Assembly (NCBI RefSeq): GCF_001761485.1
Contig: NC_090772.1
Location: 2,106,501-2,170,500 of the forward strand
Origin: Yarrowia lipolytica
Lineage: Eukaryota; Ascomycota; Dipodascomycetes; Dipodascales
Reading direction: 5' to 3'
DNA: 64,000 nt
The position numbers were made by a program, and so were the translations under genes. Below are positions 6,303 through 56,109 of the stretch, in pieces. Under the pieces are notes generated by a model, which worked only from the letters and a program-made list of their open reading frames with translations, had not been told where the DNA came from and searched no databases. How positions within the stretch are numbered: the first letter of the stretch is position 1; each line of letters opens with the position of its first letter.

Positions 6303-6330
6303 AAAAAAAAAAAAAAAAAAAAAAAAAAAC
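6303..6330 (+). repeat. Poly(A) tract, 28 A
   Basis: An uninterrupted run of 28 A follows unremarkable AT-rich sequence. It could be the 3' tail of a retroposed sequence (LINE/SINE-like, plus orientation) or a plain homopolymer. No flanking target-site duplication is visible by eye. Confidence 0.7.
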
Positions 6331-8335: not shown

Positions 8336-8970
8336 GAGTCTGAAAGCGGAGTCCGAATGGGGGCGCAGGTACCGTTGGTATGGGTTGGTGTTGGGGAGAG
8401 ATGGTCCAAAACAGACAACTTTCGCCGCTGTCCAAGCACGTGTGACCAGTTTGTTACCATAGTTAGCGGCTATAAAATCCCCACCTTTGGTTATTTACAC
8501 ACAAGCAAAGCCCCAGGATGTCCGATACCACGCTCAAGCATTCAAGCCCCAGCTAAAAAGCGTCCTCCCGTAGATGGGACAAGAAGGGCTAGCATATTTT
8601 TGACAGACACGTGTTCTGGTGTCCAAAATGTGGTACAGTACAGTACCGCAAGTGTCAGTCAGAGTGAGAATGGTGGTCATGCGCACAGCATATAGACCTT
8701 AGCAGATGCCTTGGAGGCGAAGTTCGAGGCGCATACGTGCTAAAAGTAAGGCGGTTAGAGACGCACAAGGCTGAGCAATCCACGCTTCGATTCACGATTG
8801 CTTTTGTATTATATGCCGCACATGTCTCTTATAGACCGGGTCATGATATTCACATGGAACTTCTGAGATTTTTTTCTTGGCCCAGCAATCTTTGGCGTTG
8901 AGGGGCAAAATAACGTTGGAGCTTAACAGAAGAGGTGAAATTAAAAAAGTAGACAGGAGGTCTCTTGGCC
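8336..8970. other. Intergenic, no gene seen
   Basis: Only short, unconvincing frames. A TACAGTACAGTAC word cluster lies at about 8634-8646. Nothing else is recognisable. Confidence 0.4.
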
Positions 8971-8998
8971 AAAAAAAAAAAAAAAAAAAAAAAAAAAA
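8971..8998 (+). repeat. Second poly(A) tract, 28 A
   Basis: A second uninterrupted run of exactly 28 A, 2.7 kb from the first and in the same orientation, preceded by an A/G-rich stretch. As with the first, a retroposon tail is possible but no target-site duplication is seen. Confidence 0.7.
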
Positions 8999-9302
8999 GG
9001 ACATGCCACAAAGCAAATCTAACACTCCTCAACCGTCGGACGAATATTTGAGATCAGAGAGGGGACATTGGGAAAAGCGGGTATGTAGGGGTAGTAAACT
9101 GCAGCAGGTCCGGCAGAGGGATATTCTCAAAGTTGCGCGCCGCCGTCCGGATCATCACCCTTCTAGAAAAACTCAGGGTCCAAAACTCCCAAGAACAACC
9201 TCCGAACCGATCCCAGAATAACATCCGACCCGGGAGTAGCAAGTGAAAATTGAGACATTTTATGGTGTAAAATGTCTGGAAAATTTGAAAATATAATATA
9301 TA

Positions 9303-9320
9303 GAACCGCTCTTCCGATCT
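9303..9320 (+). other. Embedded Illumina paired-end adapter sequence (artefact)
   Basis: GAACCGCTCTTCCGATCT matches, base for base, the 3' 18 nt of the Illumina paired-end adapter 2 that ends ..CTGAACCGCTCTTCCGATCT. A chance match of 18 bases in 64 kb is negligible. It is not yeast biology. It shows that this assembly used Illumina reads and that an untrimmed adapter or chimeric fragment was built in here, so continuity between 9302 and 9321 is doubtful. Confidence 0.93.
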
Positions 9321-10460
9321 CTGAGTCAGCTTATATTTAAGGTGTATTTTTTGTGTGTGTGGTTTGTTGTTGTTTTTTGGTTATTTCCCATCGGTTCATC
9401 AAGAGGCCCTATCATTTGGCTCTCTTTCCCAAGCGAATAATCCGCTAGATGTATGATACAGTATGTACATGCGGAGGGATCCAAAATTAGATGATCCAGA
9501 ATCAGTGGTCAGGAAGAGGTTCAATTGAATCGAAAATAATGCTTCTGGAATCTAAGAGTCAAGGCGAGCATAATGGTAATAATTTCGCCTTCATTCCATT
9601 AATATCCAGCCCGAAAGTCCAATCCAAGAATTAACGACAGCCGCACACGATGCACTGCCTTATCCTTATCGACCCCCTATTTGTAGTTGGTCAAGCCGTA
9701 TTACTTTATGTTTAATGCTGGTAGAGTCATGCAATGCACTGCAATGCATGCAGATTTATAGGTAGCATCACGTGGTTGCACAATATGTTGAATTAGCAGG
9801 GATAATTGGGAGAAGAATAACTTTTTCAATATTGATTATATAGACAAAATATGCATATTTGTGAAATCCTTGTGTACAGACGAACATTATGATACTAACA
9901 ATACCCTCATAATAACGATTTTCGAAAATTGATTTTAGAAAAAACTCTTGTGAGGAATTCCACCGCCGATAAATGTGGTTGGGAACTTTTAAATGCTATT
10001 TTGTTATAGGAAATTTGTGGCTATATGTTTTTGTTTCTTACCTCAGCGGTATTTTTACGTTGCCGTATGCCGAGCGATAGCCGTGTTTTGGATAATGACC
10101 CAGGACTCCACACAAGGATGAAATGGTTCTTCAGCACTATCTATCGAATGCTAGAGACTTGAATTTTGTAATGGTGCCTGTTTTTTTACTCCTCAGTCTC
10201 TGGATTTCCAGTTCGAGCCATTCTTCGTTCCAGTATTATGTCACGTGCATTCTTACATGATAACAAAGAACGGTCAAACCCCGAGTGTTACCCTACCTGT
10301 GAACTAAAATAGCTACAGCAGTACCCAAATTAACTTGTATGAATGTTAGTACAATGCATCACGTGTCTTATTTGGGAGAAGTAAGGAGGAAAATGGTACT
10401 CCTACTATTGTGATTCGGAGTTCAGACTTTTTCAGGTTTTTTACGCTCTTTTTTACCCCG
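9321..10460. other. Intergenic, no gene seen
   Basis: AT-rich in parts, with no reading frame of note. Immediately right of the adapter artefact, so its linkage to the left side needs caution. Confidence 0.4.
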
Positions 10461-17612: not shown

Positions 17613-20348
17613 ATGAAAGCTAAAGTAGTAGTCCATGTGCCTTGGACAACTGAAAAAGCACAGCTACACACCGGTACGATGGAAAAGGCCATTTATTCCA
17701 AGGATGGCAAGCGGGTGATCAACCTCAAGTCCCGCGAGACGTTCAAGACGGAAAACGTGAGTTTCGAGTGGGGTGCGGACGACTCCAAGCCCAAATCGAA
17801 AAAGAAGAAGAAGAGGAAGTCAAAGGGTCAGCAGGTGATTATCGACAGCATCGATCTGGATGAACGCAGCATTGTTCACGGAGTCATGGAAGCCAAGATG
17901 AAGGCTGAAAAGTTGGCGCGTCTGAAGAAGTCGGTCAATGATACCTTTCCACCGTCTCCGGCTTCAGGGCTTTCGCCTAGCATGGAACGACAGACTATCA
18001 AGTATTTCTGGCTCTCTCTGACGTCCGAGCAGCGACGGGAATTGGTTCAGGTGGAAAAAGAGGCGGTGTTGAACAAGATGAAACGCCAACAGAAGAACAC
18101 GTGTGAATGCGACATTTGTGGACGGAAGCGCGTGGCCATTGAACAGGAGCTGGAAACATTGTATGCCGACTACTACAAGGAGCTGGACGCTCTGGCCGAG
18201 TCCAAGGACCTACCATTGTTGCCACTACCTAGCATGGGTTTTTTCCAGGCTGACGATGTGTTGCGAGGAGGGCATCAGGACGGCAACACCACGGAGGAGC
18301 TTAGTGAGGCTACCAACCGACTCTCGATAGCACCAGCGACAACTGCAACAACTCGACCTTTGCCACAGAATCTGGGCAAGGAAATTGACGAGGAAGGCGA
18401 TACTGAGGAGGACGAACCCTATGGGTTTGAGGAGGGCGAAGATGTGCAGAGCCTTGATGTTTCATCTGTGGCTGACGATCTGCTGACCAATGACGGCAAG
18501 AAGTTCATTGAAATGATGGAGCGTTTGGCAGAGAAACGGGCGGGTCGCATTGAGGAAATTAGGGATGGAGAGGATGAGGAACCCGTGGTGGTGGAAGACG
18601 ACAATGACGATGAAGAGTACGAAAATGACTCGGACTACTCGGACTACTCCTCGGAGTATTCCCAGACTGGGGAGTCTCTTACTGCTGACCAGCGCATGGA
18701 GGAGGGACGTCGCATGTTCCAGATATTTGCCGCTCGTATGTTTGAGCAGCGGGTTTTGCATGCCTACAAGCAGAGCGTGGCTGCACAGGTCAAGGCTGAG
18801 CTGCAGCAGATGGAGGAGGAGAAGAAAACATTAGACCTTGAGAAGGAGGCCCGTGATCAGCAGCGACGAGAGCGTAAAAAGGAGAAAAAGCGCGCTCAGA
18901 AGGCTATCAAGGAGGAGGAAAAAAGAAAGGCTGCCGCTGAGCGAGAAGAGCGTGAGAAACGTGAAGCTGAAGAGGCTGAACGACTGCGTTTGGAGGCCGA
19001 GCGAAAGCAGCAGGAAAAGGAAAGGGAAAAGGCCGCTCGAAAGGCCGCTTCCGAGGCTAAGCAGAAGGCCCGTCAAGAAGAGCAGGCACGACTTGCCCGT
19101 GAAAAGGAGGAAAAACGACTCGCTCGAATCAGAGAGATGGAAGAACGCATGAGATTGGCCAAGGAAAAGGAGGAGAGGGAGAAGGAGGAACTTAGAGCGC
19201 GTCAGCAACAGGAGGAGGATGAGAGGAGGGAGAAGGAGAGGTTGGAGGAAGAGAGAATCGAAAACGAGAGATTAGAGGCCGAGAGAATCGAAAACGAGAG
19301 GCTTGAAAAGGAGCGAGAGCAGCAGAGATTGGAGGAGGAAAAAGAACGACAGAGAATCAAGGAGGAGCGAGAAAAGCAGAAATTGGAAGAAGAGCGTGAA
19401 AAGCGTGCATCCATGTCAATTCCTCTTTCCAAACCTCTTCCCGGAAAGACTCAAATCCCTGCAAGCCAGCCGGGTACTTCTCTTGGAGGTCTTCAACAGC
19501 CTGTGCCACAGGCGGCTCCTGTGGCCCCTGTAGCAATGATGCCGCAGTCTCCATCTCCTCAACTTCCTCCTGGTCTCACTCAACACGTGGCCCAATCACA
19601 GATTCTGCTGGACAGACTCACTCCTGACCCCACAAGCAGAATGACTCCCGAACGGCATACCCCTAGCCCCGGAAGTACCACTAGTAACGCTAAAACGCTG
19701 TTGGACTCGCTTTTGCGACCTGCACAAGGCCCAAGCACACCGCCTCCAGGCCCAGGTACCCCCAGATCATCCATCAGCCATGTTGCGCCTGTTGGTGCTA
19801 TCGGTACCATTGGAAGCCCCGGTCAGGTTAACCAGCAGCCCCTTCATGTTCATCCTGGACATATGAACCACCTATCCCAGGGTCCTGTGACTCCAGGTCA
19901 AGTGAACCTCCCAGTGGGTAACATTGGACACGTCGGAAACGTGGGCACTGTGGGAAGTATCGGTCTGGTGAATCCACCCGAACAACCCATTAGTCAGCCC
20001 ATTTCTCCACCCTCAACCACTCTTCCAATCTCTCAGCACCGATTTGATCCCTGGAATTCTTCTTACTCCGGTATCGCGTCGTCGAGCACCCCTGGAAACC
20101 GACTATGGGGTTCTTCTGGAGAGGTCCCTGGAAACGTGATTCGTCAAGCTGCGTTGGACGCCTATGAGGAGCTGCACAAAAACGGGTCCATTGATTGTAA
20201 CGGATTTGTAAACTCTCGAGCTCTTCAGAATACAGCCCAAAAATACTCGTCTACAGGTCAGGGATTCGGTGTCAGTGAGCTATTCAAGGCCTGTCAAGGG
20301 AGTTTCGATATTGTTGGAGGCTTGATGAAACCCAGAGGAGGATTGTAA
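17613..20348 (+). CDS. NST1: NST1-like stress-response protein with long charged coiled coil
   Basis: A 911-residue protein. A Lys-rich patch (KPKSKKKKKRKSKGQQ) near residue 60 precedes the conserved NST1 block with the aromatic/acidic motif IKYFWLSLTSEQRRELVQVE and a four-residue Cys pattern CECDICGRKR at about residue 165. An acidic stretch with Asp/Tyr/Ser repeats follows. About residues 390-605 are an extremely charged Glu/Lys/Arg helix, the rest is a Pro/Ser/Gly-rich tail, and a short globular block sits at the end (..GNVIRQAALDAYEELHK..). This order matches fungal NST1, implicated in salt tolerance and genetically tied to splicing factor Msl1 in yeast. An ATG at 17679 (MEKAIYSKDG) is an alternative start. 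A 5' intron cannot be excluded. Confidence 0.8.
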   Translation: MKAKVVVHVPWTTEKAQLHTGTMEKAIYSKDGKRVINLKSRETFKTENVSFEWGADDSKPKSKKKKKRKSKGQQVIIDSIDLDERSIVHGVMEAKMKAEKLARLKKSVNDTFPPSPASGLSPSMERQTIKYFWLSLTSEQRRELVQVEKEAVLNKMKRQQKNTCECDICGRKRVAIEQELETLYADYYKELDALAESKDLPLLPLPSMGFFQADDVLRGGHQDGNTTEELSEATNRLSIAPATTATTRPLPQNLGKEIDEEGDTEEDEPYGFEEGEDVQSLDVSSVADDLLTNDGKKFIEMMERLAEKRAGRIEEIRDGEDEEPVVVEDDNDDEEYENDSDYSDYSSEYSQTGESLTADQRMEEGRRMFQIFAARMFEQRVLHAYKQSVAAQVKAELQQMEEEKKTLDLEKEARDQQRRERKKEKKRAQKAIKEEEKRKAAAEREEREKREAEEAERLRLEAERKQQEKEREKAARKAASEAKQKARQEEQARLAREKEEKRLARIREMEERMRLAKEKEEREKEELRARQQQEEDERREKERLEEERIENERLEAERIENERLEKEREQQRLEEEKERQRIKEEREKQKLEEEREKRASMSIPLSKPLPGKTQIPASQPGTSLGGLQQPVPQAAPVAPVAMMPQSPSPQLPPGLTQHVAQSQILLDRLTPDPTSRMTPERHTPSPGSTTSNAKTLLDSLLRPAQGPSTPPPGPGTPRSSISHVAPVGAIGTIGSPGQVNQQPLHVHPGHMNHLSQGPVTPGQVNLPVGNIGHVGNVGTVGSIGLVNPPEQPISQPISPPSTTLPISQHRFDPWNSSYSGIASSSTPGNRLWGSSGEVPGNVIRQAALDAYEELHKNGSIDCNGFVNSRALQNTAQKYSSTGQGFGVSELFKACQGSFDIVGGLMKPRGGL

Positions 20349-53813: not shown

Positions 53814-54028
53814 TCTTCAATGTTGTTCACGAATGCACTCAAGATCTGGTAAGAGTAGACAAGACAAATCAAATGCTTGCATGCACAAGTGCACTCGTAC
53901 TTATATTTATGTACGTTAAACCTAAAAAAATGCCAATGTCGTTTGTACAATTGGTGGAAAAAAAAAAAAAAGATCGGCGAAAAACTAACTGTACCACAAA
54001 ATCAAAATCAAAATCAAATCAACATTAA

Positions 54029-54099
54029 ATCAATACAACAAAAAAAATCAATACAACAAAAAATATCAATACAACAAAAAATATCAATACAACAAAAAC
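54029..54099. repeat. Tandem repeat, 18-bp unit ATCAATACAACAAAAAAT, about 4 copies
   Basis: Four near-identical copies at the left edge of the AT-rich island, preceded by shorter AATCAA repeats. Confidence 0.85.
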
Positions 54100-54450
54100 A
54101 CAACACTATAACTACTGGTATGAGCAGAATACAATATTTCAATTTGTAGTACTCGTAGTCGTACAGGCAAATTTTATTCACACAAGTATCTTGAAAATTA
54201 AAATTTAAAAAAAAAATATAAAAAACATAAAAAAAAGCAGTAGCAAACCGCGGAGTAGTATAAACGACTACAGTAGTTTGATAAGAATACATAATAACAA
54301 AGCTCAAATAATAAGTTGTAAGATAGACGGAAAAACCACCAGAAAAAATATTTCGATTTGTTTTTAAACAAAAATTAGAACACAGAGTAGTTTTAGGGTT
54401 AATATGACTAAAAGTAAAGAAACATAAAAGGCATAACTAGAAAACAAAAT

Positions 54451-54499
54451 ACCTAAATGGGCTAACATAACCTAAATTGGCTAACATTACCTAAATTGG
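54451..54499. repeat. Tandem repeat, about 19-bp unit ACCTAAATTGGCTAACATA
   Basis: Two and a half imperfect copies inside the AT-rich island. Confidence 0.7.
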
Positions 54500-54982
54500 G
54501 GCCAACTTCATTACGGGTGCGGCATGTGGGGTCCAATGATCTTCCGAGAAGTTTATGACATAAAAATATTGGGTGCTTATTTAGCAGTAGTATAACTATT
54601 TATTATATCTACTGTACTAATATAAAAAATATCAAATATTTATTAAAATAAACATAGTGGAAATATTCTTACATAAATCTCTAATTTTTACAATCAATTT
54701 TTTTGGAGATGACTCAAAATGGAAATTTTGCAACCAGTATATACCATACCACATACTTCCGTAACACATTAGATTATATTTCTAACACAATATTGTAAGG
54801 TGATCCAGTCTACACTGATTAATTTTCGGGCCAATAATTTAAAAAAATCGTGTTATATAATATTGTTTAATAATAAACAGACTCCATCTACCGCCTCCAA
54901 ATGATGTTCTCAAAATATATTGTATGAACTTATTTTTATTACTTAGTATTATTAGACAACTTACTTGCTTTATGAAAAACAC

Positions 54983-54996
54983 TTCCTATTTAGGAA
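54983..54996. promoter_or_regulatory. Mcm1-type palindrome TTCCTATTTAGGAA
   Basis: Very close to the yeast P-box (TTTCCTAATTAGGAAA) bound by the MADS protein Mcm1. It lies more than 1 kb from either flanking start codon. Confidence 0.4.
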
Positions 54997-56109
54997 ACAA
55001 TTTATAATGGCAGTTCGTTCATTTAACAATTTATGTAGAATAAATGTTATAAATGCGTATGGGAAATCTTAAATATGGATAGCATAAATGATATCTGCAT
55101 TGCCTAATTCGAAATCAACAGCAACGAAAAAAATCCCTTGTACAACATAAATAGTCATCGAGAAATATCAACTATCAAAGAACAGCTATTCACACGTTAC
55201 TATTGAGATTATTATTGGACGAGAATCACACACTCAACTGTCTTTCTCTCTTCTAGAAATACAGGTACAAGTATGTACTATTCTCATTGTTCATACTTCT
55301 AGTCATTTCATCCCACATATTCCTTGGATTTCTCTCCAATGAATGGCACATTCTATCTTGCAAATTCAACAATTATAATAAGAATATACCAAAGTAGCGG
55401 TATAGTGGCAATCAAAAAGCTTCTCTGGTGTGCTTCTCGTATTTATTATTTTTATTCTAATGATCCATTAAAGGTATATATTTATTTCTTGTTATATAAT
55501 CCTTTTGTTTATTACATGGGCTGGATACATAAAGGTATTTTGATTTAATTTTTTGCTTAAATTCAATCCCCCCTCGTTCAGTGTCAACTGTAATGGTAGG
55601 AAATTACCATACTTTTGAAGAAGCAAAAAAAATGAAAGAAAAAAAAAATCGTATTTCCAGGTTAGACGTTCCGCAGAATCCAGAATGCGGTACGCGGTAC
55701 ATTGTTCTTCGAACGTAAAAGTTGCGCTCCCTGAGATATTGTACATTTTTGCTTTTACAAGTACAAGTACATCGTACAACTATGTACTACTGTTGATGCA
55801 TCCACAACAGTTTGTTTTGTTTTTTTTTGTTTTTTTTTTTTCTAATGATTCATTACCGCTATGTATACCTACTTGTACTTGTAGTAAGCCGGGTTATTGG
55901 CGTTCAATTAATCATAGACTTATGAATCTGCACGGTGTGCGCTGCGAGTTACTTTTAGCTTATGCATGCTACTTGGGTGTAATATTGGGATCCAGCATGA
56001 AGCTATAGGGTTCATTTACTGTAGTGTATATTACAATGTACTTGTACTTGTACTCGTACCAATAACCTTACAAATACGAGAACCGGCACCAGTACGAAAC
56101 TCATCAGAC

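Follow-up and report, generated by a model that had tools for sequence, protein, structure and literature searches.

An Illumina adapter remnant on chromosome C of the Yarrowia lipolytica W29/CLIB89 reference assembly, and its sister sites across the genome

Adapter contamination of microbial databases was recently described by Moeller et al. (2024), who, in the portions of their article available to us, reported it to be concentrated at contig extremities and to break contiguity (PMC11536531). The sequence analyzed here belongs to the assembly of Y. lipolytica W29/CLIB89 (Magnan et al. 2016). According to the available parts of its description (PMC5014426), the input comprised two datasets, YL97B (97-cycle single-read) and YL110 (110-cycle paired), from which Velvet contigs were built; these contigs were then scaffolded with PacBio reads, and the junctions consist of ClustalW consensus sequences of such reads. 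The error of these junctions was estimated at 8%, after which they were corrected further with unused Illumina reads, and the authors reported overall agreement between the assembly and an Irys map. The same text names NEXTflex as the library kit, which we regard as a caveat on any explanation based on paired-end (PE) adapter 2, and the spelling "adapter" is absent from its main text. We found no published account of adapter scars in W29/CLIB89 in the literature covered; most subscription papers and supplements, including the S1 Text of the assembly, lie outside this literature.

The window, i.e., the whole stretch of 64,000 nucleotides under analysis, corresponds to C3:2106501-2170500 on chromosome C. 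Direct reading of positions 9303-9320 on its forward strand gave GAACCGCTCTTCCGATCT, which is identical at 18 of 18 positions to the 3'-terminal 18 bases of the PE adapter 2 (P2) oligo, as printed in the accessible parts of two articles (PMC3076424; PMC3276176). The match stops at 18 because the next base on the 5' side is A in the window and T in the adapter. Based on base composition, such an 18-base match is expected 0.0006 times per genome (both strands) and 1.8e-6 times per window. The 13-base core of the adapter has a single exact match in the 64-kb window; at two mismatches it has two more places, and 17 of 100 shuffled sequences match as often. As the 18 bases equal the ligated 3' end of the adapter, they are classed as PE adapter 2 contamination. 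Judged by its sequence, 9303-9320 is an Illumina adapter remnant, that is, an assembly or laboratory artefact without biological meaning. Two features of the site and its surroundings are as follows.

9303..9320, forward strand: 3' end of Illumina PE adapter 2, 18 bases, in adapter-then-insert orientation; an exact match; the genome has 38 such places, this one included.
8971..8998, forward strand: poly(A) tract of 28 bases, probably unrelated to the adapter; the window has another such run, 27 A in length, at 6303.

The first-pass annotation, which was made from the window alone, had already assigned these 18 bases to the 3' end of paired-end adapter 2, and the exact match to the printed oligo bears this out. 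It had also placed a 28-base poly(A) tract 305 bp before position 9303, which is where we find it, and had described the surroundings as gene-free, which holds as far as open reading frames show: none of at least 150 amino acids lies between 1954 and 10646. A poly(A) tract of this length is not unusual in the window, given the 27-A run at 6303, and for this reason we rejected it as a pointer to the adapter site. ARAGORN found no tRNA genes in the 64-kb window. Positions 54001-56000 are strongly AT-rich, with GC contents of 0.27 and 0.33 compared with 0.37-0.54 elsewhere in the window.

To place this site in its genomic context, we searched all 20,500,066 bases of the six contigs. The 13-base end of the adapter occurs at 40 places (19 and 21 on the two strands), compared with none for the reversed control and 0.6 expected by chance. 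Inspection of the surroundings of all 40 revealed that 38 extend leftward into adapter 2, with 15-24 bases matched in total; at these 38 sites, split 19:19 between the strands, the adapter always stops at the same 3' end, its 5' end is ragged, and the flanking sequences are unrelated. Among the matches of 15 and 16 bases, some show a single-base difference from the adapter or a single missing base. The tail of any other adapter was found at none of the 40 places, and a search for PE adapter 1 contamination gave no pattern matches in the genome and one in the reversed control. The earlier view that the adapter letters are an assembly artefact is thus borne out by 38 places of the same kind with unrelated flanks.

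Wider patterns gave similar counts. Allowing up to three mismatches, a 20-base adapter pattern matched 40 genome places against two in the control, recovering 37 of the 38 sites (26 exactly) and missing the one that lacks a base. Two further matches, C1:267829 (one mismatch in 20) and C6:1167137 (two mismatches in 20), are probably imperfect adapter copies, and positions 20012-20031 of the window, with three mismatches, were counted as chance. The 12-base adapter end was detected at 43 places versus four for the reversed control; only three of the 43 lie beyond the 40 described above, and one of these three is C6:1167137. Chromosome C carries 12 of the 38 sites, compared with 6.2 expected from its length.

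We then compared the two sides of the adapter, taking 60 bases on each side of every site oriented adapter-forward, with 4000 random 60-mers from 20 of the loci as control. Mean 3-mer entropy was 4.39 on the 5' side, 4.85 on the 3' side, and 4.91 in the control (5' side versus control, P = 2.9e-12; 3' side versus control, P = 0.027; paired comparison of the two sides, P = 1.5e-5), and the mean longest homopolymer was 6.0, 4.3, and 3.9 bases, respectively. Runs of G or C, AT repeats, and C-rich stretches are frequent in the 5' flanks. Over the 38 sites, the 5' side of the adapter is unusually simple and the 3' side is close to ordinary sequence. At the window site itself this contrast is absent, because its 3' flank (entropy 4.11) is as simple as its 5' flank (4.37).

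Three of the 38 sites, picked because reading frames reach the adapter, were compared with relatives by protein search. At C3:124177 (L017:3986-4006), the Illumina-side piece matches P0121, a 612-aa kinase whose Yarrowia sp. relative is named hal4, with full identity over 473 amino acids; the beginning of the gene, across the adapter, matches P0121 as well, and the non-Illumina side shows several frame changes within about 120 bases. At C1:1131854 (L010:3994-4013), the sequences to either side of the adapter both match a hypothetical protein from Yarrowia sp. C11. The third site, C5:256373 (L049:4074-4094), interrupts a class-I myosin; the adapter separates its head and TH1 domains from the tail end, and P0001 and P0002 each match both halves, which lie in different frames. 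At least five further adapter sites (in L022, L026, L029, L030, and L037) also look coding, with frames that shift at or near the adapter.

In all three genes, both halves match one relative and are in the correct order. The spacing between the nearest conserved anchors differs from that of the relative (assembly minus relative) by +1, −1, and +5 nt, where the adapter measures 21, 20, and 21 nt; small native length differences are possible in this test because two of the three relatives are not identical to W29. Over a wider stretch at C3:124177, the assembly is 11 nt longer than the relative, which further bridge errors would explain. Since the differences are +1, −1, and +5 rather than about +20 nt, the adapter is shown, at the level of these alignments, to have replaced native bases at the three sites rather than to have been inserted between them, with the halves of each gene remaining neighbours and gene order kept.

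Taken as a whole, these observations are best explained by untrimmed PE adapter 2 at the end of a Velvet contig, which was kept when the contig was bridged with PacBio reads and left a local scar (probability about 0.95). Reads from short inserts may have run through into the adapter; good reads were probably in short supply near low-complexity sequence, and Velvet contigs there would then have ended in 15-24 adapter bases. Such ends would have been kept as trusted sequence at PacBio joining, with the bridge attached outside them. The combination of simple 5' flanks and ordinary 3' flanks fits the published Velvet/PacBio joining with untrimmed adapter at contig ends, and so do the reading frames beside the adapter. 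The source of the adapter may be YL97B rather than the paired dataset YL110, because adapter 2 alone was found, a pattern consistent with read-through in single-read sequencing. The adapter replaces roughly as many native bases as it has, as seen at the three gene sites, and the same would apply to 9303-9320, where about 18 native bases would be hidden between an Illumina contig on the right (from 9321 on) and a PacBio bridge on the left. The two sides of the window site can be outlined as follows.

9321..9800, no strand: 3' (insert) side, probably where an Illumina (Velvet) contig ends; present once in the genome, with the orientation suggested by the sister sites and by viral contigs (9800 is the limit of the stretch tested and marks no feature boundary).
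8860..9302, no strand: 5' side, probable PacBio-consensus bridge of lower accuracy, as suggested by the sister sites and the published method; present once in the genome (8860 is likewise the limit of the stretch tested and marks no feature boundary).

No repeated or duplicated copies of the flanks of 9303-9320 were found in the genome. We also considered whether a facing pair of sites, C3:1318806(-) and C3:1323432(+), could represent the two ends of one bridge. The 3.6 kb tested between them is single-copy DNA with open reading frames, apart from one weak match of 61 bases, and this idea was rejected; the two sites are probably separate junctions.

Several other explanations of the 18 bases deserve consideration. 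That they are natural, either a chance match or a short dispersed yeast repeat, gains something from the two remaining 13-mer places, which are ordinary codons of an aspartyl protease (Pfam Asp, E-value 6e-27) and a PreP/M16 peptidase (PreP_C, E-value 2e-20), a number close to the 0.6 expected. However, this reading has to contend with the expectation of 0.0006 for an 18-mer, with the fact that the part common to the 38 sites is exactly the adapter between unrelated flanks, with the interruption of three genes, and with the presence of the adapter 20-mer at the ends of stretches of unrelated viral contigs. The genome-wide count, the reversed control, and the flanks rule it out, and its probability is negligible. 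A simpler form of contamination, which the first-pass annotation assumed, would be a clean insertion of 18 bp between native bases, whose removal would rejoin the true flanks; the spacing at all three gene sites, which departs from about +20 nt, makes it unlikely.

The same annotation had also warned that the left and right flanks might lie apart in the real chromosome and that gene order here is suspect. An adapter at a contig end does mark a join that spans a gap in the Illumina assembly, so that left and right flanks that are not neighbours could have been joined falsely. On the other hand, the three gene sites compared, out of 38, all keep their halves in the correct order, and the available text of the assembly paper reports overall agreement with the Irys map (PMC5014426). 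A false join therefore appears very improbable and the warning was probably too strong, although for the window site this is reasoned from its sister sites. If 9303-9320 was left by an untrimmed contig end, as we favor, its flanks are probably true neighbours, and by analogy with the three genes a clean assembly should show different bases at these positions rather than a plain 18-bp deletion.

It is very likely that the W29/CLIB89 reference contains about 40 adapter scars, and no fewer than 38, that each has taken the place of native bases at the edge of a PacBio bridge whose correction was imperfect, and that they interrupt at least three genes: one for a HAL4-like kinase, one for a class-I myosin, and one for a hypothetical protein that has a relative in Yarrowia sp. 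C11. In no fewer than three genes, adapter letters are present and the frame changes next to them, on the bridge side. Our observations also suggest that, for each scar, the direction of the adapter tells the Illumina-contig side from the error-prone bridge side. The list of sites is a correction list for this reference and holds no biology. In the parts of the respective articles that were available, W29/CLIB89 is named as the RefSeq assembly now in use for the species (PMC12888388), and genome-wide CRISPR guide libraries are described that were designed from its annotated coding genes (PMC8854577).

Comparable contamination was found in IMG/VR, where the adapter 20-mer occurs in 12 stretches (L050-L061) from 10 contigs. 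In all 12, the 20-mer lies at the end of the stretch examined with the insert inward; three of the stretches are whole contigs and nine are shorter than their contig. These copies match 24-35 adapter bases, with 0-16 bases beyond the match. They resemble the Yarrowia sites in the identical 20-mer and the inward insert, but differ in that the adapter is at the end of the stretch, whereas the Yarrowia copies are internal. The contamination described by Moeller et al. (2024), as far as the available text goes, is similar in that Illumina adapter ends were left in assemblies; it differs in affecting prokaryote draft contigs and in involving a 12-base universal core with other tails. In Yarrowia, by contrast, the adapter is PE adapter 2 and it is internal to chromosome-length contigs, an internal position that would arise because contig ends were later bridged with long reads.
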